Assembly: GCA_033220425.1 (NCBI GenBank)
Contig: CM065653.1
Coordinates: forward strand, 3,162,001 to 3,226,000
Source: Lepraria neglecta
Lineage: Eukaryota > Ascomycota > Lecanoromycetes > Lecanorales > Stereocaulaceae
Length of the DNA stretch: 64,000 nucleotides
Direction of reading: 5' to 3'
In this document: one piece after another, positions 2,533 to 40,991 of the stretch
How positions within the stretch are numbered: the stretch's first letter is position 1
How the letters are laid out: every line of letters starts with the position of its first letter
Notes under the pieces: generated by a model
Seen by the model: only the letters and a program-made list of their open reading frames with translations
Databases searched by the model: none
Told to the model about the DNA's origin: nothing
Translations under genes and position numbers: made by a program

Positions 2533-3900
2533 ATGAGCACCGTCTCCAATCTGACAACAACGGATGCACCCCTGTGGAACACGTCGACGGACCATGGTCC
2601 GCTTGTCAGCGTTATCACCTGGTTTCTCGTCATCACCGCTTTCCTTTCCGTGCTCGCACGTGTCTCAACTAGATACTCCGCTGTTCGACAAGTGCGCCTA
2701 GATGATGTGTCGATGGTGCTTGCCATGGTTAGACACACACTTTTGGACGCGTCAAGAGAGCTTTTACTGACTGCAGTCGCTCAGTTACTGGCCATAGGAC
2801 AGTCCATCACCACTTCTCTGCAGGCGTCCAATGGTTTGGGTGAGCACATTGACTCGGTCTCGCCTGACAGATTGACGCGCTTTCAAAAGGTCTGAGCAGA
2901 ACTCCTCGCCATCTCATTCGCATGTCTGGACGGGGCTCACCTAGTGCAGAGTACCTATGCCTCCGGGTTCTTGTACATCGGAGCCTTATTCGCGATCAAA
3001 ATCTCCATCTGCCTTCACCTGGATAGCCTTACCCCTGTAGGATTGCACAAGACCATGATATTATGCGTCGGCGCATTTACCTGCCTCTGGATGGTCTCAT
3101 GCTTCTTTGTTATTGGATTCCAATGCCGATTACCGCATCCTTGGCAGTTTGTTGAAGGCCATTGCATTGACATAACTGGGTTTTGGACGTATGCCAATAT
3201 CATGAATATCCTCACAGACTTGGCCTTGGTCGTTATACCTTGGTTGATTCTCTCGAAGCTTCAGGTGAAAATGGGGAGGAAAGTAATCATCATTGGCTGT
3301 TTTACCGCTCGTCTATTGTAAGTATACTTCAACGATCAATCTAGCCGTACCAGTCCTGCACATCTTGCTCATTCATATCCCAGCGTTATAGCCGTCACCG
3401 TCGTGCAAATCTATTTCCTCCAGACCAAAGCCGCCAATTCACAAGACCAGACGTTTGATTTCTGGACCGTCGTCCTTGTCACCTCGATTGTCCAAACCCT
3501 GTCTCTAGTCGCTGCCTGTATACCCTACCTGAAGCCCTTCATGGGATCCCTCGAAACAGGCATGCTTCGCGCAGACGGAGGCGCGCCATCTCGCGGCCAT
3601 GGCTTCGGATACAGAATTCGATCAACCAACCCTTACAATAAATATGGAGTCTCCTCCAAGCTTTCGTCGAAGCAGAGTCGTTCTCAACTTGGCGACGTTC
3701 GCATGGACAGCTTTGGGTTCTCGAAGCTGGGAGATGCGATTCCTAATAGACAGAGTGCTGGTGCCACGGCCAAGGGCCCAAGCCCGGACTCGGATAATGA
3801 TAGCCAGTCGAGCCAATCGAAGATAATCAGGAAGACTGTGGGCTGGAGCGTGACGGAGGAAACACAGGAACCGCAGATACCGCCGCACGCTCATAGTTAA
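2533..3900 (+). CDS. SAT4-type (fungal rhodopsin-like) integral membrane protein
   Basis: Four exons (2533-2727, 2785-2889, 2950-3317, 3384-3900) give 394 residues. The three introns are 57, 60 and 66 nt with good GT...AG ends, and the frame is continuous only with these joins. I chose the ATG at 2533; the open frame reaches back to a TTG at 2512. The protein has the layout of the fungal SAT4/rhodopsin-domain family (PF20684 type): about seven hydrophobic segments across roughly the first 270 residues and a 'RLDDVSM' loop after the first one. Conserved pieces include 'SNGLGEH', 'SGFLYIGALFAIKISI' and 'VAACIPYLKPFM'. A polar serine-rich cytosolic tail follows. Family members have no settled biochemical function, although many lie near secondary-metabolite genes. 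A second member lies 3.2 kb downstream on the other strand. Confidence 0.87.
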
Positions 3901-7133: not shown

Positions 7134-8592
7134 TTACAAGACCTTATCCGATCTTACCTCCCAGTCTTGCTTCACCTTGATTGTTGAGGTTGATGGAGAA
7201 AACGTTTGATTTTCTACATCTCGAACATCCTCGTCGTTGTTCACGGAACTCGGCTTACTCCCCAGTCCAGTAATATGGTTCTGTGTCCTCAACCCTTCAA
7301 TGTCGGTAAGAGGGTAACTATTTAATTTTGGAGTCAGCATCAGTACGTACTGAAGGTTACGAGTTGTGAGACATTCCTAATTGGCAGGGTCCTAGCGAGG
7401 TGTATAGCAGACCTCGTACAGCAGTATGGATGAGGAGGAGATAAGAGGCCAGCAGAAAAACTCACGAGTCATCGAATTTTCCGAACGCAGAGTTTTTCAT
7501 TCTTCTTGATCGTAGCCGTGCTAAGCTACTTGAAAGCACATTCCTCGAATCAGGCTGCTTCTTCAAGCCGAACAGTCTGTTGAATGTGGGTGGGAACAGA
7601 GGCAGGCACGCGATCGTAATGCCTAGCAAGGGTTCCAGGTCAGTGACGATAGCAAGCTTTGCTAGGTCATATGTGAAATCGTCGATCTGGATCTGAGCGC
7701 CTAGGACGATACGCAGGATCTTAATAATGCAAACGCTATCGATGTGAGACGTGTTTGATTCGTTACAATACGGAGTACCTACATGAAGCCAAGGCCGAAA
7801 GTGACTGTAAGCGCGATCTTTCTCCGCACCGCCATCTGAAGCTGCCAGATCATTGGCATTGGTAGGATGATGATTATCAAGTCTACGGTCACATTGACTA
7901 TACTTGTAGCCACAACGGCGCCTATGGTTGATCCACAGACACCAGGAAGGAGGAGATCCCAGTTTTTCTCAAATGGTCGGCAAATCAGGAAAGCAACGAG
8001 GGTGTTACTGATGCCGAATGATATGACAAGGGCCATTGTTGCGTATGCAACGGAGCGGAAGGACTGGTTCGAACCAAATATGTTAATGTAGAAATGTAGA
8101 ATGGAAATCTTCACTGCAGTGTTGGCTGCAGACCACGCGACCAAAGCTGCTATATAGCCCTTAATTGATGACGTTAGCATCACACTTTCCAGAATGTTGG
8201 CCCCTCGTTAATACCTTTAGAATGCCTGGTATATTTCCCGGGTCAACGTGAACCTCGTGCTGTCCACCTCCGCCTATCACAGCTACTTTGCATTAGGCTC
8301 GTAGTGAATTCTATGGAAAGGGATCCTACCGAGGACAGCCGTTGTTACGAGTCCCGCTGTAAGAGACTTCTTATAGTCAGCCAAAGATTTTTCACTTAGA
8401 AGGAGCTGTAGACAGTACCCATGCTAATAGCGCTGTATAATCGTTCAAACACAGTCGGTGGCCTTGGATCCTCCTCGAGCTGACTCGTATAGCGAGAGCT
8501 ACTGCTGCAAGAGCCAGGAAGAAGGAATCAAGAACAAGAACTGCGATCCCTAATGGGTTCTTCTCCGTGTGAACGAGACTTCTTTGATACAT
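7134..8592 (-). CDS. SAT4-type (fungal rhodopsin-like) integral membrane protein
   Basis: Six exons on the minus strand (8419-8592, 8330-8369, 8215-8285, 7783-8159, 7466-7735, 7134-7317) give 371 residues. The introns are 49, 44, 55, 47 and 148 nt, and each join restores a family-typical run such as 'VLVAVIGGGGQHEVHVDPGN' or 'GFIVCIIKILRIVLGAQ'. The ATG at 8592 opens the frame. The protein has about seven hydrophobic segments, the 'LNDYTALLAW' loop after the second segment, 'NTAVKISILHFYINIF' in the middle and a polar tail. Function is unknown, as for the whole family. It is the second such gene in the window, convergent with the one at 2533 and separated from it by transposon relics. The longest intron (7318-7465) is the least certain join. 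Confidence 0.85.
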
Positions 8593-9829
8593 TGAAATGA
8601 AGAAGAGAAAGATTTTCCTAGAAGTGCAAGATGTGGATCCGCAGAGACAAAGCTATGGATCAGGAAAGAACAATAACCATTCTGATTTCGTGCAACAGAA
8701 AAGCAAGATTGTGGGGATAGCTTTGACCCTAGGAAAATAAAAGACCACAGCATGGCCGCGAGGAGACATACGAGGATGTAAACCCAAATTTTAACTCATT
8801 TTGCTTCCGTCCTGTTGCGCCTGGAACAGCTGCAGATCTGGGTTTCATCCAAGGCAAGACATTGTGCGTGAGCTATGATCGGCATTCAATTGTCAGCTCC
8901 GACTTGTACGTCCTCCGTCTTACTCGCATCTCCCAAGCATGCAGGATCAGACAGATATGACGTGTCATCTTACATGCCTGAGTGAAGCATCTGTGTCCAG
9001 TGATACTACCTTCCCTTATTTTATTAGCGCGTGCCGTTACATCAACCCTCCTAAATATCCTGCGCCTCAAGGCCGTTCATTCGTGAGAAATCGAAGGGAG
9101 GTGAAACCAAACGGCCTGCTGCAGCTTCTCCGCTTTTGGTCTTCGTAATTTACGCTTCGGTGTTTGCTACGCCAACTATTCGTTTGGTGTAAGGAAAGGT
9201 AGCAACGCTCATTGAACTTTTCCTGTTCCGATGTGGACTACTTTAGATGGTCAATCCGAAGTTATGCGTTATATAATGCCAGGGATATTACTAGCTCTAA
9301 ACAGCCTCACTGCAGCTGCTCGAGATAACCTTATTGGATTACAAGCCCACATGCAGCAATGCTAATACTGTGCCGCAATTGTCCCCTCGTGTCGCTAAGC
9401 AGCTTGTATATGCCAGTACCTATGTATTCTTCGTTTTTGCTCGCTACAGTGGGACTGTGGGTTAGTGTGTCTCATGATCAGATGCGGTTTCAGCCATGCG
9501 CCATGACCATGGGCCATAGCGAGAGTCCGTGCTTCCTGAGAGCACTATTTATATGAGCATCCCACCAGCAGTGGGCTCTTCAGTCGAGTTCATCTCTTTC
9601 AGAGCCATAGCAGTTCTTTCCCGCCCACCCGCACCTTATACATAGCCTATATATAGCCTATCTACACTCCAGGTCTATGCGGCCTAGGCATGGGAGTTTT
9701 CTAGCGCTGGGGCACCTGTCGTGGCCTTTCTAGGCTTGCTAGCCCTGGCGTTGGACCGCCCAAGCATCTATTTACATATCCACTTGTGCCGGTGTGTATA
9801 GCTTCAGGAATGAGAACACTAAGAGCAGC
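8593..9829. other. Intergenic, no gene recognised
   Basis: About 1.2 kb lies between the membrane-protein gene and the FAD monooxygenase. Short frames occur on both strands, but none shows a domain or joins into an exon chain. The part near 8593 is presumably the promoter of the minus-strand gene, and the part near 9829 the terminator of the monooxygenase. Confidence 0.4.
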
Positions 9830-11228
9830 TCAGCCATGCCAGTACTTGCGTAGTCTGGACATATAGCCCGCCAAGCGGAATTTAGCCTCACTGAAGAAAA
9901 ATGCTAGGTATCCATATTGATACCAGCTTCCCCAAGTGATGCTTTGCAACCGTGTAAGATGCGCATAGTCCACGACCTGACTCTGCCATGCCGCAAGACT
10001 CATCTTTCCAGATAGCATCTTCTCGAGCAGCAAGGCGTTAAGTGCTGCTTGGTTAGTACTGCAAGCCACGTGAGGTCGGAACGGGCAAAGGGCGTCGCCA
10101 ACCACTAGTAGTTTGCCATCGAAGAAAGAAGGTTTACTGACACCAATGTCGACTATGGAGGTGATAAATGGCTGGGTAGTCTTGTGGATCAATTCCGCAA
10201 ACGGAGCAGGTAGTATTCGTGACGCCAGGGCGCGCTGTTTTTCCCAAACATGCTTCTGCATCTTACCAATCGGAACCGTATGGCGATGCTGTTTGCCCGA
10301 GCTATCGGTCATGGCTTCAGCAAGCTCGAGTGAGTCCTCGGCGATGTTCGTATACCACACATAGTTCAGCAGACGCTCCCCTGGCTCGAGTGTGCCATTT
10401 TCACCAGGGATCGTATAGCTATACTGATGTCAGCTCGAAAGTAATGGGCACGCTAGAGAGACTAACAGAGCGATGTAACTGTGAGTTGTTGCATGAAGGG
10501 TAGTCTTCAGCTGGAAAATGTTCTTCGCCTCCTCGGACACCTCGCTTTCAAGAACAGTGCCTCGCCACGCGACATAGCCGGCGTATGTGTGTTTGAGGTA
10601 AGGTTGCAACAGCTGGCGGATATGGGATGTGGAGCCATCTGCTACAATGACCAGGTCGGCACGAATAGAACCCCGACCACCCGATGTCTTGTCCAAGAGA
10701 TCTTCCAATTCGACAATAACAGACCCATCTATATATTTGATATTCTTGACGGACTTCCCTTGTTCGTAGACGGCTTTGCCGTGTTTGTTCGCTTCTACTG
10801 GTGTATACTCTGGTGGAGAGTTGCAATATGAGCTGGTGAGACCGTCGAAGTTGGCCCTGAAACGGTAGTAGAGGACGTTCCAACTGGCCATGCGCATTGG
10901 CCGATCGAAGCCTCCGACAACTTTGAGGTCTTTGTCGAGAGATTGCACACCAGGACAAGGGACGGCGTATGGCTGTTCCTTGAGGTGATCATGAGCATTC
11001 ATGAAGGCGTGAGAGTGTTCCATGGTGACGATTCCGGCTGCTTGACCCTCTCGTGTAGACGAAAGATGCTGCTCCAGAATGGTAACGTTGTGGCCAAGGC
11101 GTTTGATGACGATACCTTGCATTAATCCAGCTAGGGAACCACCAATCTAGATTTGATAGTCAGAATCTGGTCAGATTGGTGAGCTAGGGCAGAGGACGAA
11201 CAACGACGACGCTGGGCGAGCCTGACAT
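9830..11228 (-). CDS. FAD-dependent aromatic-ring-type monooxygenase
   Basis: Three exons (11202-11228, 10467-11146, 9830-10418) give 431 residues. The 27-nt first exon supplies the start and completes the dinucleotide-binding motif 'VVVIGGSLAGL' (residues 7-17), which supports the ATG at 11228. Introns are 55 and 48 nt. Other hallmarks are the 'LVIVADGSTSHIRQ' block (DG motif) in the middle and 'LLVVGDALCPFRPHVACST' (GD motif near residues 343-344), which binds FAD ribityl and pyrophosphate. The 'FRPH.A.ST' continuation resembles 2,6-dihydroxypyridine 3-monooxygenase-like proteins. The family hydroxylates or epoxidises using NAD(P)H and O2; the substrate here is unknown. It lies 1.2 kb from a UbiA-type enzyme on the same strand and 3.2 kb from a P450, so a tailoring role on a terpenoid is plausible. 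No lesion is seen. Confidence 0.88.
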
Positions 11229-11620
11229 CTTGACGCTAATGTTTGGTCAAGCTTCGATAGTGCTGGCGAGGTTGTAGTAGTAAATTCTTCAGTTCAAACT
11301 TGGTCTTTGAGACTACAGTTCTCATTGAGAAGCTGATTCTCTGAGAGGGTCAGGAGTTGAGGAATCTCTATGCTGATTTGAGTGGCTGCAGTATGACTGT
11401 GCTATGGCGGATGAAGGGGTGCTGAAAAGAGTTGTGTCGCTTTGTTGTTGGAAGCAAAGTCCGAGACGTGTGTGAGCTAAGGTATCGGTATCGGTATCGG
11501 TATCGCAGGAACAGTGATTCAAAGTCAAGTATTGTAAAACTATCTTGATGTTGCCTAACGTGACCCCCTAGGCGTTTTACGAGTACAAGTACGAGTACAT
11601 ATTCTAAATGCTTTCGCCGA
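11229..11620 (-). promoter_or_regulatory. Upstream region of the FAD monooxygenase with short direct repeats
   Basis: About 250 bp upstream of the start codon lie four head-to-tail copies of GGTATC (11481-11505; GATACC on the gene strand). A further 80 bp out is a GAGTAC/AAGTAC/GAGTAC series (11581-11599). Such direct repeats could be binding sites of a pathway regulator or simple microsatellites. No regulator gene is visible nearby to decide. Confidence 0.35.
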
Positions 11621-12384
11621 GAGTCTTTACATGTCATACAGCCTACATCGTGCCTGGGACACACCTCCGTTGATCGCCGCACAGACAATTCTTGATACAT
11701 TAGCTAAGTTCGCAGCCCGGCAGGCAACCGTCCGAGCTTATGTACACTAGGATTAAGCCGAAGCCGAGCGCTTGTTCAGGTAAAGTAAGGTACGCTAATT
11801 GCTTATGGTTACATTACTTGATGTCATACAGCCTACTTTACTTCGCATTAAATGGTCACTCACACAAAATAAGATCTTCCAGTTATTATATAGAGGATCT
11901 ATGCTCCGATCCTATAAGCAGCCGACCTATCGGGCTTTGACATTTGATGCCTAATTGCATGTATCATGCATGTCATGAAACACCCATTATGCAAGGATGC
12001 GGTCCCTCGATTGCAAGATCGTCAAAATTATCATCCTTTTGAGATACAGCTCCGAATTTGGCCATCGATGCCGCAAGGCATGCGTAGGTTTCCGTAGGGG
12101 TAGATGCGTTTGATCACTACGTTTGAATTAGCCTTCTACTATAACTCTAGTCTCTCGAGTTCTGGGGCCGTAGAGAGAGCCAGCGTTGTCCTTGGTACGG
12201 AGAATTCCAACCTCGATCCAAGCTTCAGAAGCACGCGTATTCTCAGCATCTTTGGGCAGGATTGCCCTATCTCTGAAAGCACTAATCCCGATAGGACACG
12301 ATTTTAGCGCTTAGTAGGGAATGACTTTGCACGGATTGTATACTAATAGCATGATTCTCTCGTGGTAGCCCGCTATTGATCTAA
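11621..12384. other. Intergenic, no gene recognised
   Basis: This is the flank between the FAD monooxygenase promoter and the 3' end of the UbiA-type gene. No coding region is supported. Confidence 0.4.
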
Positions 12385-13359
12385 CTATCGCTTGCTCAGA
12401 ATCGGTAGGAGATAAAAAACAACGATCCACAAGTTCCAAAGTAGAAATGTGCGCTTGTCATCGGCAACTCTCCTCAAAAGCAACGTTCTCAACATCACAG
12501 TGAGGCCTAGACCCATCGGTAGAATAGAAGATGAAACAGGCAAGCCCCAAAACCAAGGCCCGAACCAAGACCAGAAAGCCATTGGGACGGCAATGGTGAT
12601 TCTACTAGGCCAGTCCCCAATTGCGAGAGGAATTGACCGACGCCTGCGCAGTCTGTCCCCAGCTTGATCCTGCAAATCCTGCGTGTGGACAGTCGTGAGT
12701 ACTACCGCACCAATGACGGTAAACCATCGGAAAAGCGGCGAGTTTGAAAACAGAGGCAGCGAGCTTCCATACGCAACCTCCATTGCCCCTGATGCATAGC
12801 AGAGGAATCCGCAGCTATTGATCAGATTTCGTATGACTGGATTCCGATCGGCTCCTCCAAGGTCGTTATACCAAAAACCCAGGCAGATCAAGCAAAGACA
12901 TTGCCTCACCCCACCAATATGAACGCTCGACAAGAGGGCAACAGGGTAGAGTCCAAGCATCCAAATTTTTGCACATGATGGACTCATCCTCTTCGAAGGC
13001 ATGGGACGCCAAGGTTTATTGACGCCGTCTTCTTTGATAGCTGTGGATTGCCGTTGATTGTCGATTGAGAAAGGTAAAAGATTGACCCATATCCAGAGGA
13101 TGACTAGTGGTAATCGTTTCAATATCATAGGATACTCAGGGCACGGTAGGTCAAAAACCGAAGCGTGAAGTCCGTTAAAGACACCGAATACTATGTTGGG
13201 TCCAACGATGGTCTTAAGGTCGCTGTAGGTGAAAAGCCATATAGAAAGCAGATCATGTTTCATGGTATCCCAAGTAGTAGATGCCTTGTTTGAAATTCGT
13301 CTTGCTGGAGTGCGCCCTTGATTGAAAGTTGGCTGACTGACATTGGTCGAAAGAAACAT
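12385..13359 (-). CDS. UbiA-family membrane prenyltransferase / terpene cyclase
   Basis: A single uninterrupted frame of 324 residues starts at an ATG (13359). The protein is strongly hydrophobic, with about eight to nine membrane segments after a polar 40-residue N terminus. Two polar motifs face each other as in the UbiA superfamily. The first, 'DNQRQSTAIKEDGVNKPWRP' (residues 100-119), takes the place of NDxxDxxxD. The second, 'QDLQDQAGDR' (227-236), is the second Asp-rich motif that binds Mg-diphosphate. The 'EDxxNKPWRPxP' form is that of a fungal subgroup that, as I recall it, includes the fumagillin-pathway membrane cyclase Fma-TC. The protein could therefore cyclise a prenyl diphosphate or prenylate an acceptor; sequence alone does not decide. 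It diverges from a P450 over a 1-kb intergenic region and follows an FAD monooxygenase on the same strand. Confidence 0.85.
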   Translation of the reverse strand: MFLSTNVSQPTFNQGRTPARRISNKASTTWDTMKHDLLSIWLFTYSDLKTIVGPNIVFGVFNGLHASVFDLPCPEYPMILKRLPLVILWIWVNLLPFSIDNQRQSTAIKEDGVNKPWRPMPSKRMSPSCAKIWMLGLYPVALLSSVHIGGVRQCLCLICLGFWYNDLGGADRNPVIRNLINSCGFLCYASGAMEVAYGSSLPLFSNSPLFRWFTVIGAVVLTTVHTQDLQDQAGDRLRRRRSIPLAIGDWPSRITIAVPMAFWSWFGPWFWGLPVSSSILPMGLGLTVMLRTLLLRRVADDKRTFLLWNLWIVVFYLLPILSKR

Positions 13360-14384
13360 ACTTGCTCTTAATAATTCGTGGGCTTACTGTGATTCTGAGT
13401 TTTGAGGAGAGCTGTGATTGTCTTATGTTGAAACTTGAAGCTTTCTTGAGGAGTCCAGACCATCGGGGACTTGAGACAAGAATTGATACTCTTAGTCGAC
13501 AATCTGAGGGCTATGGTTATCTCCGTCTGCTAGTACCCGTTTTCAAAGGCTTCTCAATACGAGGTCAGTGTTCCCACCAATGGAATGAAGCAATCCTATT
13601 AGCACTCCACCGGGCTGCATTAATCTAAATATCATGTTTGGGACTGACGCACGAGTCCCGTGTCTCTTCATATGCAGGCGTCACTGCGGCACAGATCCAT
13701 GTAATCTTGCCGTACGGATAGTGTTTCTGTTTCGACCTTAACCGTTTGGAAATTATCTAAGGGGTCCTTCCTATCTCGCTGGTTATTGAGGATCTCTGGT
13801 ACTCTACGTCTTGTCCCCCTTAAGTCGTGGCGTGCACTATGCACAGTGAAGGGTATAGAAAAGTCCTTATGATGAAGCTCGAATTCATAAGACTGGCACG
13901 GAGTTCCCCATTACCTTATTCAACATTATGCATCACCCCGGAGCTGAAAATCTTCGAACAGATCATTGGCTACACTTGCATCCCTTTAGAGCGTTCCACT
14001 GGACGTCAGCCTTGCGCTTTCTGATATGGTGTCGTGCCTACTAAGTTCATCTTGTTCAAATCCCCCCGCATAACAGGACGTATCGCTGTAACATAGCCTC
14101 TCGAAGCTATGACTACCTGACTCAGCCTTTCCCGCACACTCATTTGCTCATTGAGACCGAGGATCTGCGCTCGGCTTTACCGTTGGCCGTCTAGAGGGCT
14201 GTCAAACTATTAGGCTTACGTCAACGCCCGAACCAATGGATCTCTAGTCCAATGTTCATTGCATACTGCGCCTTCTCAGTGGAACAACACTCGTGTCAGA
14301 TACATAATGAATTGATGCCCCATCTTTTTGTAGCACACATCCAGTTCTGTACACTACTTTACACCAATAGTCAGTGTCCACGCC
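13360..14384. promoter_or_regulatory. Shared intergenic region between divergent UbiA-type gene and P450
   Basis: These 1025 bp separate the start codons of two divergently transcribed genes and must hold both promoters. No coding frame in it is convincing. I see no clear palindromic site or TATA pair that I would defend. The arrangement itself suggests coordinated expression. Confidence 0.45.
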
Positions 14385-16412
14385 ATGCTCTTGATGCTTC
14401 AATTGTGTTTGGCAGCAGTTGCTGGGACGTCCTCTCATCTGGTCTACTTCATAAAAGGCGAGCATCACATCCAGGCACCGAAGATTTTCAGACTCTCTAT
14501 AGCCTCAACCTTCATATTGTTTTTCATTGCAGCGTCTTTGGAAGATGTACAAAATGCAGTCTTAACTACTATTTGTGTCCTGTCCAGCTACGGTATCGGT
14601 CTCTTCGGGAGCATATTGACATATCGAGTGTTTTTCCACCGGCTACATGGGTTCCCAGGCCCGCCTATGGCAAAGGTATCAAAGTTTTGGAACGTGGTCA
14701 AAGCTTCAAAGTCGACCAACTTCAGACTTATGGAAGTCATGCATAATCGCTACGGCGACTTTGTACGCACAGGTACGTGGAAATTGATTCCATAGAACCT
14801 CAATAGACTTGCTGATTTTTGTGCAAATCTCCAGGCCCAACGGAGATCTCAATCTTCAAGCCAGAGGTGGTACGCGCAATCGATGGCCCTGGTACGAAGT
14901 GTTTAAAGGCGCCGTGGTATGACATTATGCAACCTCGTGTCTCCGTTGCCACCACTAGGAGTAAGGAATTTCACAGTCAACGACGTAAGATATGGGAACG
15001 AGCTTTCCGCCCACATGGTGCCACATCCCGATTCAACCAATCAGTGCTGTGTAGCTAAAAGTGCCTAGCTCTACAAGAATATGAGCCTCGATTGTTGCTT
15101 TTTGCAAACCAGCTGCACCGACGAGTTTCCTTAACGGAAGGCAAAGCGATCAATGTCTCCAAACTCTTTTACTTGTACTCTTTCGATGTTATGAGCGATC
15201 TAGCCTTTGGAGAGCCTTTAAATATGCTCGACAGCGACGAGTACCATTTCACAGTTAGGCTGCTTCAGGATGGTATGAATCTACTCGGGCCATTATCTCC
15301 TGTTCCTTGGCTAGTCAGGATAGGCTACAGTGTGCCATACGTAGCACAGAATTTCAAGGATCTGCTTGGCTGGTCAGCGCAAAAGCTTCGCCATCGAATG
15401 AAGGTGCTGTATCATTCCCCCACACAGCATTATAGGTCTGACAATACGTTTAGAGTGAGCCTGTCAAACGCGATGTCAGTCAAAATAGTGGTTTAGACTT
15501 TGAACTTTGATCTAATCTCGGCAACAGGTCATGTCATGGCTTTTAGAAGCTAGCGAAGATGCAGGTCGCTTGAAGCAAGATGAACACTGGCTTCGAGGAG
15601 ACTCTTTTGCTCTCATTGTCGCTGGAAGGTATGTCGTGTTCAAAATGTGCTACGAAAAAACCATTACTGAAGTGTAATTGCCGATCAAGTGATACCGTCG
15701 CATCTACTCTGATATCCATCTTCTACCACCTTGCTGATGACCCCACCCAGACGATGAAGTTACGAGCAGAGCTTGACAAAGTTGACAATCTCCAAGACTC
15801 AGACGAGCTGAAGTCAATGGCGCACCTCAACGGCATGATCAATGAAGCTTTGCGTCTGCATCCTGCCCTTCCATCAGGGGGTTTACGGGAGACACCTCCA
15901 GAAGGCCTGACTATAGCCGGTCACTTCATACCCGGCAACGTCACCATTGTAGCCCCAAGATACTCCTTGGGTCGGCGTAAGTGATTGCTCCAATTCTGCC
16001 GAGAAGTTTGGCATTGATATATACAGTTGAGTCATGTTACGACAGACCAAACGATTTCATACCTGAAAGATGGTATTCTAAGCCAGATATGATCAAGAAT
16101 GACACAGGTTTCTCGCCATTCTCCATAGGTATGTCTTCGCATTATGGTAGATGCAAGGCTTTTTATTGCAGTCGCTAACATGACTCAGGGCGCTATAATT
16201 GCATTGGGAAGAATCTTGCTCTGATGCAGCTACGCAGTGTTGTGGTCAGGCTAGTGAACGATTTCGATATCAGATTCGCACCTCATGAGGATGGAGTCGC
16301 TGTCTGGCGAGATCTGAAGGATCAATTCAATTCGCACCCAGGAAAGTTGGAGCTCGTCTTTGTGCCGCAAGGGTCCACATTGGCGGATAGTACAACGAAT
16401 CCGTGGCACTAA
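14385..16412 (+). CDS. Cytochrome P450 monooxygenase
   Basis: Seven exons (14385-14772, 14835-15017, 15069-15454, 15528-15628, 15690-15976, 16027-16128, 16189-16412) give 556 residues with introns of 50-73 nt. The N terminus has two or three membrane segments, longer than the usual single anchor, followed by the hinge 'LHGFPGPPMAKVSKFW'. Diagnostic motifs are all intact: I-helix 'AGSDT' (351-355), K-helix 'EALR' (405-408), 'PNDFIPERW' and the heme loop 'FSPFSIGRYNCIG' with Cys487. It resembles fungal P450s annotated as tryprostatin B 6-hydroxylase-like, but the substrate is unknown. It diverges from the UbiA-type gene, the same pairing of membrane cyclase and P450 seen in the fumagillin pathway, so oxidation of that enzyme's product is the obvious inference. 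The exon 3/4 join (donor GTGAGC at 15455) is the only one with a credible alternative. Confidence 0.92.
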
Positions 16413-28394: not shown

Positions 28395-29815
28395 ATGGCA
28401 CCTCATGCAGATGATACGACTTTTGATCCTGAGATCCCGATATCTACCAAACCACTTCCTACGAATGGTGACGCCCAAGCCCAAACGGCTTCTAACGGCA
28501 ATGCCAAAGAGCATGCCGCAGCAGTCTCCAACGGCGAAGCGAAAGAGGTTCTTGAGTCAACACATCATGCGTCTCCCAGTCCTCCATTGCAGCTAAAGGG
28601 CGTTCTCAACGAGTTTAAATCCTTCGACGTGACTCCGGTCATTGGCAAAGAATTCCCAGAAGCCAAGCTCGCCGAATGGCTTAGAGCTCCCAATTCCGAT
28701 GAGCTGATCAAAGATCTGGCCATTACGAGTCCGTTCATCTCCCATCATAATACGGGGTCGTCAACTGACAACTGCCCCACCAGTCTCCCAACGCGGTGTC
28801 GTCTTTTTCCGCGCCCAAGACGGTCTAGATGACACCCTCCAAAAAGAACTCGCCCAACGCCTTGGCGAGCTTTCCGGGAAACCAGCATCATCCAAGCTGC
28901 ATATCCATCCCATCATCAATTCGGGCCGCGACGGAGGCGGAGGGGATGACGAGGTCAGCATCATCAGTTCTCGCCAGGTCAAGAAGCTCTACAAAGGATC
29001 TTTCTTGGTTCCGGGTGAGAAAAGGCAGAGTGGGAAAGAGGGATGGCACTCGGACATCACGTTCGAAGCTGTGAGATTCTCCACCCTCAACTCTCCTCAA
29101 TTGCAACTCGTCTATGTTGGCTAACAATATTCGAATACCCACAGGTGCCAAGTGACTATGCCATTCTGCGGCTCGTCGAACTCCCAGGTACCGGAGGAGG
29201 TATGTCTTCCCACCTTCCAGGAGCCTCTGATTTGGCAATGCTGACAATGCATCACCACCAGACACCCTCTGGGCTTCCGGCTACGAGCTCTACGACCGTC
29301 TTTCCAACCCCTACCAAAAATTCCTCGACAGCCTAACCGCCACCTACGCGCAGCCCAAATTCAATGAGACCGCCAAAAACGGCGACTTCAAACTCTACTC
29401 CGCCCCCCGCGGCTCCCCCTACAACATCGGCGAAGAGCTGTCCGCCATCCACCCCGTCATCCGCACCAACCCCGTCACAGGCTGGAAATCCGTCTTCGCA
29501 GTCGGCACCCACGTGCAGCACGTCAACGACGTCACGCCCTTGGAATCGAAAGCGCTGCTGGAATGGTTCGTGAAGTTGATTGTGGATAATCATGATTTGC
29601 AGGTTCGACATCGCTGGCAGAATCCGAATGATGTGGCAATTTGGGATAATAGGAGTGTTTATCATGCTGCGACGCCGGATTATGAGGGGTTGGGGGAGAG
29701 GTTAGGTCATAGGGCAGTTAGTATTGGGGAGAAGCCTTTTTTGGATGTGGGGAGTAAGTCGAGGCAGGAGGCGTTGCGGGAGTTGTCGAAAGAGGATAGA
29801 CTCCCGGTCTCTTGA
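28395..29815 (+). CDS. TauD/TfdA-family Fe(II)/2-oxoglutarate dioxygenase
   Basis: Four exons (28395-28728, 28784-29070, 29145-29199, 29262-29815; introns 55, 74 and 62 nt) give 409 residues. The N-terminal 70 residues are low-complexity and polar. The catalytic domain follows, with the iron-binding facial triad visible as H200 and D202 in 'GWHSDITFE' and H360 in 'DNRSVYHAATPDYEG', and R376 in 'GHRAVS' for 2-oxoglutarate. 'VPSDYAILRLVELPGTGGDT' is typical of fungal sulfonate/taurine dioxygenases and their relatives. The family hydroxylates a substrate next to a heteroatom, releasing sulfite from taurine-like sulfonates in the best-known cases. The nearby Dal5-like permease could import the substrate, but that is an inference from position. 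No lesion is seen. Confidence 0.9.
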
Positions 29816-35401: not shown

Positions 35402-38400
35402 ATGTCGACGTCGAGTACCACAACGGAGACCACAGGTCCATCGATTATGGAAATCCGGCCTCATGTTGACCGTACGAAGGAAGAGTATCGTAATTCGTTC
35501 GGCACTTTCGTTGGTGCTGTTGGTCCATTTGGGCGCTGGCAGGTGTAGAACGCTGTTGACAAAGTTAACGATATCTAGCCTGAACTCGAAACCCACGTCA
35601 TAACCCTGTTGGAAGCTAAAGCGTACGAGATACAACCACCAAGAAAATATCGAGGCCCTAAGGAGCCATCTCATGCGCTGCGTTGCTACATGGTGGGATT
35701 GAGCCATGATTGCGCTTCGCCCCATGTCGTCATCATCTGTAGGCAGAAGTGGTTTTACACACAGATCAGGGACATTGTGTTGAAGTCATGTTTGCTACAG
35801 GACGGAGGATGGGCTGCCTTCCTCAAGTACAAGGCGAAATTCGTCAGCCTGGGAGAGCCTCGCCTTGCAAACTAACACCCGGCTTGACCGTCTCTTTGTG
35901 TGCAGACAAACTACCCGAGTCACTCTAAGGCACCAGAATCACCGTGTCTGGCATAGATGGAGCAATTGTTATCGCAACTCTTGGAGGGGTCCTCGAATTG
36001 GATCGAGAATATTACGGGCTGACGGTTTCTCATACATTCCTGTCGAGCAAGCATGAATCTCACAGCTCATCCTTGTCCAGGGAGCATGATTCCGAGAGGG
36101 CGGAGTCGGAACCCGTTTCGGACATTGACAATTCTTCCTTTACATTCGACGAGGATGACTTGGACCCATTCGTTCATCCTCTGAGGCTGAGTCTTCGGAA
36201 GCCCAAACCAAACAGCCCCTGACACCGACGATGGACACATCCTCAGCTCAGTCTGCAGAACATCAGCCAGCTTCCTCTCTTAATTCCCCATCATCGCTGG
36301 AAAGATCCTTCAGTCAATTGAGGCGGGTACCCACAGAGACATGTATCAACTGCAAGCGAGCAAAGGCCAAGGTATGCAATATATTGTGTGGGCTTCTCTC
36401 GTCTGTCTTGCCAGAAACTGACCGTAAAACATAGTGCGATGCTGCTAAGCTAGTGTGCCATCGCTGCAGGCGATGGATGATTCACGATTCGTGCGACTAT
36501 GAATTATCTGCAAACCATGAGAAAACTTACATATCCGCAACTCCCAGCCAACCTTCATTACAGTCAGTTCAGGCTACTGGCGTCCGACCGTCCGAAGAGC
36601 GCCTGGACGCTTTCAACGTAGATCCGATCGAAGATTCCCCTGGCCAGACAACGTCTCCAGAATCCTTATCACTGGGTGCTCCACGTTGGACTCTAGGCTC
36701 TGTTAAGAACTTTGGAGATACCCCTGTGCTATGTTCGGAATGGGCTCTCGTGTCTATTGAGCTTGAGAAATTAGCCAAAGCGGGTAACATCAAGGCCATG
36801 GCTGCTAGCTAGATCGGCGAGAACGTACGTATGACGTCCATAGCGAATAACGCCCCCACTGGCAGCGATTTGTTCCTTGCAACTCCAACTGGCACGGCTG
36901 CAGCCATTGGCATTGGTTCGGAATCAATGGTCAAATTTTCTTCCTCGGCAGGCTACTCCCGGGTGTGGACCGTACAGTTGGAATTGGCTGAGGATGGGGA
37001 TTGTGGATCATGGGCTGTGAACAGGAAAGGCGAATTACTTGGAATGCTAATAGGTAGCTGCGACGTTGCCCGTGAAGCGTACATCTTACCCGCGCGCACC
37101 ATTTTCGCCGAGATTGAAGCGGCCAGCAATAAGTCTGTGTCGTTGCCTTCTTTGGAGCAGGCTGACAGGCCGTCGTTGTCTAAAGATACCATTCCCATGG
37201 CGGCTGAATACACATACTCGCCACTGAAAAGAGACGAGATACGCATCCTGACTCTGATGCCTGGAGATGACGAAGCTCCGATTGAGTGCTATCTAGCTAT
37301 TGGTAATATCGACGCGCATTTGGAGTACGAGGCGTTGTCGTATGGCGGGGATCGGTCGACTCCCTCCTCCCTCGTCAAACTCCAGCACCATTTTCCGGTT
37401 AGTCACCAGCTAATCTCAGCGCTGAAGGCCTTGCGATACAAGGAAAAAGCCCGTTATCTTTGGGTGGACAAGTTCTTTATTAACGGCAATGACAATGGGG
37501 AATTGAACGCACAGGTCGCTCTCATGGCGCGGCTTATGAGCCAAGAGAGCGACCATGTTCTGTGGCAAGTATAGTATGCCTTGGAACGATGTTGCGGACG
37601 CTATCTCGATTTAACGCGCCTAACGAGGACCGGTCGCAAGCGATATCTACTTGGTTTAACCGAAGGAGAAGGCCGAGCGAGCGCAATCCAGTCGCAGACC
37701 TCCTGGTTTTGGGCACCTTTGTCGATTTCGCAGAGAGCATAACACGGCGGGCTGAAGATGGTCGATTGGAGCTCACCTGCTCACTGGAATATTTGGTTTG
37801 CGCGCTAGCTTGGCTCAATGTGTCGGTTCAGCACGACCTGATGTATTCTTTTCTATCATTGACAAGGGGCACAGAATCGCCAAGTCTCCCTTCCTCGGAT
37901 GCCAAACCCTCTTCCCGGGGAAAGAAAAATCAGAAAACGCAGGAAGGCCAAAGACGGCAGCGAGTGCTTAGACTGGTGCAAGCAATGACTCGGAGACCTC
38001 ACCAGATTGTAATTGACTATAATCAGCGCTTTGTTCAAGTCTGTAAATACTTTACAACCATGGCTATCCACAGCTCCAAGTCCCTCAACATCATCTACCG
38101 TCCCTAGGCACCAGTAAATCTTGATCTTCCCTCTTAGGTGGCTAGCATATCCCGGGCACCAGTCATTATGCAGAAAAACAGACAATTTGGTCGTGTGAAC
38201 GCCGACGAATTGGTCGGCCTCGGCGACCCTAGTAGGTCAAAGGTCTACAATGCCTCAGGACATACGGAGCCCACCTTCCATTTCTCGAACCATTCGAAAA
38301 CGCCAACTCTCTACACCGAAGGTTTTGCTCTTGATACAGTGCATGCGAAGCAGCAGCCGGCGCTGATGAAAAACATACCCTCTGGATGGACCGACTTCTT

Positions 38401-38982: not shown

Positions 38983-40991
38983 TTAGAGAGTGGACGCCCT
39001 CGACCATTTTCCTCTCGCGCGTATGCGGCGTCCATAGAAGTAGAAACTAGTCAGTCATTATCAGTAATGCTCCTCAGTAGCCCAAAACATGCACGCAGAT
39101 AAACTTACATAAACGGAATCGGAATCATAACAACTGTAATCAGAGCAATCAGTGTCGATGCCCAGTTAATGCCTAAGTTGTGAAACACTGGAGAATCAAT
39201 TAGCTTCAGTAACGGAAGTATTGTCGATGTAATGCAAACGTACTTGGTGCGGCGAATAGTGGAAAGACGGCGGCGAATATACTCCTAAGAGCCGTCACTG
39301 CTGCGACAGCGCTAGCAGCGTACATCTGGAACGTGTCGATTATGTAGTTGAGTGAGGCTTGGAATATCATCAAGAAGCCCGCACCGAGCAGCACAGCGCC
39401 TATGCATGGTCTACATCACCAGTCAGCATTGCGGCCAAATAGAGCACAGAGCCTTGACATACCCAATCCAATGGATATTCTTGCTCGAAGTCCAACCAAA
39501 TATGAACAGACCGGCAGCAAACAGTATCCCTCCAACCATCATCGGTGGCAATCGAGCTTCTGGAACCGGGCGCATATTGTTCGCTTCGAGCTTTTTGACG
39601 TAGAACTTCGTGTTGTAAAGATTTGCGCCTGCTCCGATTACTGTACCAATCAGGGTTGCTATAAATGGGAGAGCCCCGACGAGTTGGTTCCACCCGCGCT
39701 CTTCCTGGAACTCGATTGGGAAAGCAGCGAAGCATCTAGGCCATTGTAATGTGGTTAGTCAACCCGAAATGATATGATGGAGGGAAAGTGACTGACAAGT
39801 ATACGATGCCATAGACGAAAGCTGCATACAATGACATGAAAAACAAGATAGGCGTCACAAGAAGTTGGAACGGTCTGACGAGGTACTTGTGTGCCAGTGA
39901 ACTGATCGTAACGTTCCACTCTTCGTGTTTTGCATGAAGAGCCCAATTGCCTGTCTCGTATCTGAGTTGTTGTGCTTTGTAAACAAGCAGCGCACTTGGG
40001 AAGGTTTCGTCAAGGAAAAGAAGGTCTAGCACAAGGACGAAAAGCATCATCATGCCAGTCATCTTGAAAAAAGACTCAGCGATCCTGGAGACAGGTTTTT
40101 GGGTTTAAGTTGATACGTACATATTCAGTCCATCGCCAGCTGATATTACTCACTAACAAGGCACCAGCGACTACTGGTGACAAAAGTGGCCCTCCTGCGA
40201 CAGCCATGGAATAGCCTGCCAATGCCGCCGCTCGTTGAGCAGGAGGGAAAATATCGCCAAGCACACCACCTGTGTTTGAGACTGGAGCAGAACAAAAGAA
40301 TCCGGCAAAGAAGCGGGTGATCATGATACTTTGTAAGTCTTTCGAAGCCGCAGTCGCAAAGGTAAAGCAAGCTCCGATAAAGTAAGGTGGGAAGACGGCC
40401 ATTCTTCTCCCGTAGACTTCGCTGAGCGGCGCCCAGATCAGTGGTCCAAGACCAAATCTGGTTTGTATTAGGTGACGTGACAGCCAAAGTACGAGATTCT
40501 GACACACCCTAGTAGAAAGAGAGTGATTCCAAGTGTCGATACAGTGGTCGAGACACCATACTCCACTGCGACTGGTGTTATGTCCGCGGAGAAGCTTCTA
40601 GTTGTCAGTAATGGACATGAAATAAACGGAGTCCTGCGTACATAGAGGTATTCCATGAGCTGCACATTGTCGTAAACCCGTACAAGACTACTGTAATAAC
40701 TTTCTTCCTTTGAGGCCAGTTCATCGGTCGATAGGGGTCATCCTTTCCTTCGAAATTGACAATAGCACCAGCATCTGTCTTCTGCTGAGACAAAGCATGG
40801 GTAAAGTTTCGATTCTGGGTGCGAGAAGATGTGATCCGGCTCATAGGCGAGCGTGGGTCGAGCATCCTTGTTGGACGACGTGAAAGTATTTCTGGCCGGT
40901 CGTAACTAGGCGATGCATCGAATCCAGTTGACTTCTTCAAGTCCAAGGAGGTGAAGTCGTCATCTTCTGCCACGGTCTTTACGTTTTCCAT
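38983..40991 (-). CDS. MFS transporter, DHA1 (drug:H+ antiporter) type
   Basis: Eight exons (40642-40991, 40508-40597, 40121-40457, 39797-40062, 39463-39735, 39244-39410, 39109-39187, 38983-39046) give 541 residues; introns are 44-62 nt. A polar N-terminal region of about 95 residues ends with '[20 protein letters not shown]', typical of fungal polyamine/multidrug DHA1 carriers. Twelve membrane segments follow, with motif A '[15 protein letters not shown]' after the second, motif C-like '[19 protein letters not shown]' in the fifth, and '[20 protein letters not shown]' late in the protein. The substrate is unknown; relatives export azoles, cycloheximide or polyamines. It converges on the broken HET gene with only 104 bp between stop codons, yet shows no lesion itself. 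Confidence 0.92.

Follow-up and report, generated by a model that had tools for sequence, protein, structure and literature searches.

Terpene synthases of the UbiA type are marked by the motifs QDXXDXXXD and NXXX(G/A)XXXD, and the prenyltransferases of the same superfamily by NDXXDXXXD and DXXXD (PMC9835599). In Tps1A of Antrodia cinnamomea, mutation of the aspartates of motif II, of D100 or of Y155 led to loss of the product (PMC9835599), and Pb_BisA is likewise given QDxxDxxxD as motif II, together with N95QRHPG100SVAED105 as motif I (PMC11745945). Several such cyclases are described together with a cytochrome P450: Fma-TC and Fma-P450 have the adjacent gene numbers Afu8g00520 and Afu8g00510 (PMC7020470), and Pb_BisB of Penicillium brasilianum is a P450 proposed to carry out several oxidations in the bisabolene pathway (PMC11745945). 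Here we analyse a locus of the ascomycete Lepraria neglecta at which a UbiA-type gene, a P450 gene and a FAD monooxygenase (FMO) gene lie together. It is contained in a stretch of 64,000 nucleotides, hereafter the window, which corresponds to C8:3162001-3226000 of a 42.0-Mb genome in 11 contigs. We argue that the core of this locus is probably a two-gene sesquiterpene module, made up of a membrane cyclase and a divergent P450, with the FMO as an optional late tailoring enzyme.

The three enzyme genes stand intact and side by side at 9830-16412, just as the initial annotation had described them, with gene models and Pfam matches in agreement on the FMO, the UbiA-family protein and the P450; splice sites are those of gene models predicted from the sequence. 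The UbiA-type and P450 genes were also correctly said to diverge from a region of about 1 kb, which measures 1,025 bp, and the linkage between these two genes recurs at three further loci of the same genome (Table 1). A genome search with the window P450 returned 92 matching pieces, among which the C1 and C6 loci were the two best non-self matches by E-value, the C8b match being split over several pieces. In a P450 tree of 22 rows (the window gene, four relatives and 17 other loci, eight of which are interrupted by a stop or frame break in rough gene models; the tree excludes pieces without a retrieved locus and, at C8:189.9 kb, an N-terminal fragment) the window gene forms a clade with the P450s of C6, C8b and C1 and a lone C8 relative (support 97/94). 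Four of the five clade members, the window gene included, sit divergently beside a cyclase gene at a distance of ~0.7-1.3 kb. The members also share intron positions: sites 439 and 473 are present in all five and site 191 in all four that cover it, while site 130 is found in three of four (C1 being unclear), sites 302-304 and 343 in three of five, and site 309 in the window gene only. Counted from the other partner, a P450 neighbours five of the seven cyclase-like genes of the genome, and at four of the seven it belongs to this clade and is divergently arranged, which makes three of the six loci outside the window; the C4 cyclase is directly adjoined by a P450 of another kind on the same strand. 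Because three of the four closest relatives of the window P450 divergently adjoin cyclase paralogues, we regard the cyclase/P450 pair as a duplicated module. Among the four pairs, C1 branches outermost in the cyclase tree and in the P450 tree alike. A literature search, incomplete for the field and confined to accessible portions of papers, found no within-genome family of divergent UbiA-cyclase/P450 pairs.

The genome holds sixteen UbiA-superfamily loci, nine canonical and seven of the window type. A tree of 20 rows (the seven cyclase-like proteins, the nine canonical ones, UbiA, MenA and CyoE of E. coli and one Streptomyces plasmid protein) unites the seven in one clade with support 97/90, within which C6 is closest to the window protein (99/96) and C8b next (100/97). 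A split supported at 85/90 separates this clade from the nine canonical proteins and from UbiA and CyoE of E. coli, and the Cox10-like gene groups with E. coli CyoE (100/100). Grouping with Coq2 or Cox10 was one of the outcomes that the initial annotation had named as fatal to its proposal; the tree sets the window protein apart from them and cyclase motif II is present, and the two together rule out a Coq2 or Cox10 identity. Throughout the genome, [QR]DxxDxxxD occurs at all seven cyclase-like loci and N-X9-D at six of them, the seventh being broken at that spot, whereas NDxxDxxxD occurs at none of the seven, the window protein included, and at seven of the nine canonical loci (it is absent from the other two). 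With a PF01040 match above the cut-off, motif II and the N-X9-D spacing, the window protein is classified as a predicted Pb_BisA-like UbiA-type terpene cyclase; the strict Fma-TC/Tps1A-type class is not assigned, because its motif I does not follow NXXX(G/A)XXXD.

In the mechanism that we propose, the UbiA-type protein would act within the membrane as a terpene cyclase on farnesyl diphosphate, D111 of motif I and D228, D231 and D235 of motif II would hold Mg2+, and the diphosphate would be removed. The cation would then close to a bisabolyl-derived hydrocarbon or alcohol of the bisabolene, bisabolol or bergamotene type, that is, a bisabolane- or bergamotane-type sesquiterpene, whose scaffold the membrane-anchored P450 would then oxidise, perhaps several times, and to which the FMO may contribute a later oxidation. 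We infer the substrate, the metal binding, the product class and the order of these steps, and likewise co-regulation of the two genes through their shared intergenic region. The scheme of the initial annotation, a UbiA-derived scaffold tailored by two oxygenases, is borne out in part: the cyclase motif, the tree and the cyclase-P450 linkage speak for it, but not the FMO as a member of a conserved unit.

A number of observations weigh against the two-gene reading. Motif I of the window protein departs from strict NXXX(G/A)XXXD, being N-X9-D rather than N-X7-D and having no G/A, and with T106 at the place of Pb_BisA G100 its match to motif I of that enzyme is limited to the N, the D and their spacing. 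The D111-Y164-D228 spacings of 53 and 64 are close but unequal to the 55 and 60 of Tps1A, and a single-sequence AlphaFold model is of poor quality (mean predicted local distance difference test score, pLDDT, 43.6). The UbiA tree is flagged for long branches, those of E. coli MenA and the Streptomyces plasmid UbiA, which are so long that the placement of both is unsure, and because the tree contains no characterised cyclase sequence it is the motifs, together with the distance to the canonical enzymes, that carry the cyclase assignment. The linkages, moreover, are not independent, because the pairs descend from duplicated pairs; random placement would put three of the four P450 relatives at 3 kb or less from a cyclase with a chance of ~4e-9, a figure that excludes chance but not neutral inheritance, because the pairs were inherited together by duplication. 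The nearest partner of the window copy is C6 in the cyclase tree but C8b, together with the lone P450, in the P450 tree, and since the two differ we reject full congruence of the trees; a single member of the P450 clade stands without an adjoining cyclase. Lastly, the module may be dispensable, because only one of the three pairs outside the window is unbroken.

The place of the FMO bears on how many genes the pathway has. A true three-gene cluster, in which cyclase, P450 and FMO serve one pathway and the FMO hydroxylates or epoxidises the P450 product, is a real possibility to which we give somewhat less than an even chance. The genes are adjacent and all intact, and the window FMO is open, compared with three of its four relatives in the genome (on C7, C5, C4 and C8), which in rough gene models are either incomplete or interrupted by a stop or frame break. 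The family is hinted to serve secondary metabolism, because ketoacyl-synthase domains lie at 8.3 and 10.3 kb from two of the four relatives (C4:338.6 kb and C5:323.8 kb). However, none of the six other cyclase loci was found to have an FMO relative nearby (ten candidates were scored and a weak relative could be missed), a gap of 1.16 kb separates the FMO from the UbiA-type gene, and the FMO was duplicated separately: its closest relative, on C5, is 64-66% identical over ~148 residues, against 51% for the closest copy of the cyclase and 48% for that of the P450. A conserved three-gene unit is therefore not supported, and by its distribution the FMO lies outside the conserved module; it may be a recent joiner or a bystander.

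UbiA enzymes are mostly prenyltransferases, and an aromatic prenyltransferase, giving a meroterpenoid tailored by the oxygenases, would suit the PF01040 match, the resemblance of the FMO to an aromatic hydroxylase and a motif I that lies off the strict published cyclase pattern. The presence of QDxxDxxxD without NDxxDxxxD, a tree that parts the window protein from all nine canonical members of the family in the genome, and the lack of a ketoacyl-synthase domain within ~270 kb make this highly improbable. It also strikes us as improbable that the pair is the leftover copy of a neutral segmental duplication that has gone out of use: stops or frame breaks in three of the six cyclase paralogues and two of the three partner P450s would fit such a history, but both genes of the window pair have uninterrupted reading frames and retain their motifs, and pairing, orientation and a similar spacing have been kept despite ~50% identity to the nearest copies. 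The two-gene module of cyclase and P450 is the reading that we retain.

Table 1. Features of the cyclase/P450 locus and of its three paralogous pairs; coordinates are those of the window unless a contig is given.
Feature	Position	Strand	Basis or remark
Gene for a FAD monooxygenase of 431 aa, with introns at 11147-11201 and 10419-10466	9830..11228	-	Gene model, PF22607 2.6e-53; pathway membership doubtful
Gene for a predicted UbiA-type terpene cyclase of 324 aa, in one exon	12385..13359	-	Open reading frame, PF01040 9.5e-20, tree, motifs
Motif II, Q227-D-L-Q-D-Q-A-G-D235 (QDxxDxxxD)	12655..12681	-	Published cyclase motif QDXXDXXXD (PMC9835599)
Motif I, N101-QRQSTAIKE-D111 (N-X9-D), ahead of NKPWRP	13027..13059	-	N-to-D spacing as in Pb_BisA N95..D105
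Divergent intergenic region, 1,025 bp	13360..14384		Presumed to hold both promoters; same layout at three paralogous loci
CATATGCA, sole 8-mer common to all four divergent intergenic regions	13669..13676	+	Weak evidence
Cytochrome P450 gene, 546 aa, seven introns	14385..16412	+	Gene model, PF00067 1.3e-53, intron sites compared with relatives, tree
P450 introns	14773-14834, 15018-15068, 15404-15453, 15475-15527, 15629-15689, 15977-16026, 16129-16188	+	Gene model
C1 pair	C1: cyclase 2362341-2363251; P450 2358847-2360932	cyclase +; P450 -	Divergent
C6 pair	C6: cyclase 4003128-4003978; P450 3999902-4001852	cyclase +; P450 -	Divergent
C8b pair	C8b: cyclase 1629478-1630338; P450 1626650-1628517	cyclase +; P450 -	Divergent

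All seven introns of the P450 model are GT-AG and 50-62 nt long, and an apparent premature stop near 15058 was discarded on finding that it falls within a 51-nt intron. The translation retains AGSDTVAS, EALR and, as its heme stretch, FSIGRYNCIG. The FMO also matches PF01494 (1.5e-10), and its best PDB match is 2vou, a 2,6-dihydroxypyridine hydroxylase, in an alignment that takes in the GD stretch; the domain match together with the FAD motifs GGSLAG and GD places it in the 2,6-dihydroxypyridine hydroxylase-like family PF22607, and its best NCBIfam match, at 270.7 bits, is below the cut-off of 333. Five short open reading frames in and around the two gaps between the genes gave no Pfam match at E 0.01 (the remaining short ones there were not searched). 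The statement that the window holds no polyketide synthase, nonribosomal peptide synthetase or soluble terpene synthase is confirmed as far as ketoacyl-synt (PF00109), Condensation (PF00668) and Terpene_syn_C_2 (PF19086) are concerned, all of whose genome matches fall outside it; other terpene-synthase families were not searched. The nearest ketoacyl synthase on the same contig is ~274 kb away from the three genes.

Every one of the four divergent regions contains the 8-mer CATATGCA a single time, and three other cyclase upstream regions lack it. Some 8-mer was common to all members in 13 of 300 simulated sets, and seven or more shared 7-mers, as observed here, in three of 300. As a common promoter element, CATATGCA is suggestive at most.

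Decay is widespread among the copies. The C6, C5 and C4b cyclases carry stops or frame breaks; that of C8b is open and has YNVLEGAS where the window protein has YNDLGGAD, and those of C4 and C1 are without a break, although the C1 model lacks an assigned start. The C6 and C8b P450s are broken, and the C1 P450, whose model is uncertain near residues 131-137, has no stop or frame break, which leaves the window and C1 as the two of four pairs without visible lesions. Repeat-induced point mutation was rejected as an explanation of this decay: the window had values similar to those of the other tested loci in two dinucleotide indices, and none of them was of the kind that such mutation leaves.

Near these genes lies a dispersed repeat of 382 bp. 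The end of its window copy, at 9441-9822, lies 8 bp away from the stop codon of the FMO gene, and at least 39 further near-complete copies of 97-99% identity were scored among 197 candidates. The repeat starts with TC and ends with CTAA, and exact head-to-tail tandem copies are present at C4:1295887-1296401 and in L064. In these features it somewhat resembles a non-autonomous Helitron, although it departs from the rule of A and T at the flanks of such elements. A copy of 97% identity stands immediately upstream of the broken C5 cyclase (L007 2439-2821; C5:4728004-4728386). One P450 of the clade is seemingly split, its C-terminal part at L063 919-2199 (C8:149418-150698) and its N-terminal part at L064 1058-1434 (C8:189857-190233) lying on the same strand with ~39 kb between them, and copies of the repeat (90-92% identical, one of them partial) are found less than 100 bp from both broken ends.

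Farther right in the window are genes for a TauD-type dioxygenase (29231-29812), a HET-domain protein (36813-37571) and an MFS transporter (40079-40597), and nothing ties them to the cyclase/P450 pair. To the left of the three genes are two fungal rhodopsin-domain membrane proteins (2896-3897 and 7465-8207), presumably PTH11-like, and another fungal rhodopsin-domain protein occurs near the C4 cyclase paralogue (L003). Together with the short introns, the Fung_rhodopsin and HET domains point to a filamentous ascomycete.

Distant comparisons add little to the placement of the cyclase. The window protein had no phmmer match in the PDB up to E 10, its NCBIfam matches were all far under the cut-off, and no relative was found in the viral contigs and phages searched; a profile of the three intact cyclase copies had archaeal DGGGP synthase 6m31 as its best match (E 0.0033). 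Prokaryote genomes yielded one weak match, 29% identical and inside residues 90-242, and plasmids two distant UbiA matches (E 1e-4 and 0.05). In a Streptomyces plasmid (L068 3715-5711) a polyprenyl synthetase is paired with a UbiA protein that has N-X7-D as motif I and shares 24.7% identity with the window protein across 55% of the latter, an arrangement that looks like a bacterial UbiA-type cyclase operon.

Small terpene pathways can be overlooked, because UbiA-type cyclases match a prenyltransferase family in Pfam. The seven cyclase loci, four of them divergently paired with one P450 clade, offer a natural series on how a cyclase and an oxidase stay together and change product, and the pair itself is a two-gene target small enough for expression in yeast. 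A more ambitious view, which we hold to be rather unlikely, is that the module of cyclase and its own P450 clade, with one divergent promoter region, has multiplied in a filamentous fungal genome, where its copies are subject to birth and death, and that the lesion-free window copy has captured a PF22607 FMO and would give an undescribed terpenoid skeleton or oxidation pattern.

Set beside described systems, the locus is less unusual than the initial annotation, which spoke of an unusual minimal pathway, had made it, for a cyclase with a P450 is the known logic of both fumagillin (PMC7020470) and Pb_BisA/Pb_BisB (PMC11745945). The fumagillin locus of Aspergillus fumigatus likewise has a UbiA-type membrane sesquiterpene cyclase beside a P450 (PMC7020470), but fumagillin also involves a polyketide branch and a larger set of tailoring genes, whereas the window genes have no ketoacyl synthase within ~270 kb and a PF22607 FMO as neighbour; NXXX(G/A)XXXD is conserved in Fma-TC, and the window protein does not fit it (PMC9835599). 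Tps1A and Tps2A of A. cinnamomea and EriG of Hericium erinaceus share QDxxDxxxD as motif II, and Tps1A is partnered by the P450 Tps1H, but these are basidiomycete enzymes with the N-X7-D motif I NXXX(G/A)XXXD (PMC9835599). In Hypoxylon fragiforme, a cluster combines a prenyltransferase, a reducing polyketide synthase, a P450 and a FAD monooxygenase (PMC8403587). By motifs and gene content the cyclase/P450 pair is likened to Pb_BisA/Pb_BisB, which has N-X9-D as motif I, QDxxDxxxD as motif II and a partner P450 (PMC11745945), and from which it differs in having T106 at the place of G100. BibS, with which Pb_BisA reportedly groups (PMC11745945), perhaps belongs to the same sub-group as the window cyclase. 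The window system thus belongs to a known kind, that of Pb_BisA/Pb_BisB and Fma-TC/Fma-P450, and what is new is the duplication of the cyclase/P450 module within one genome.

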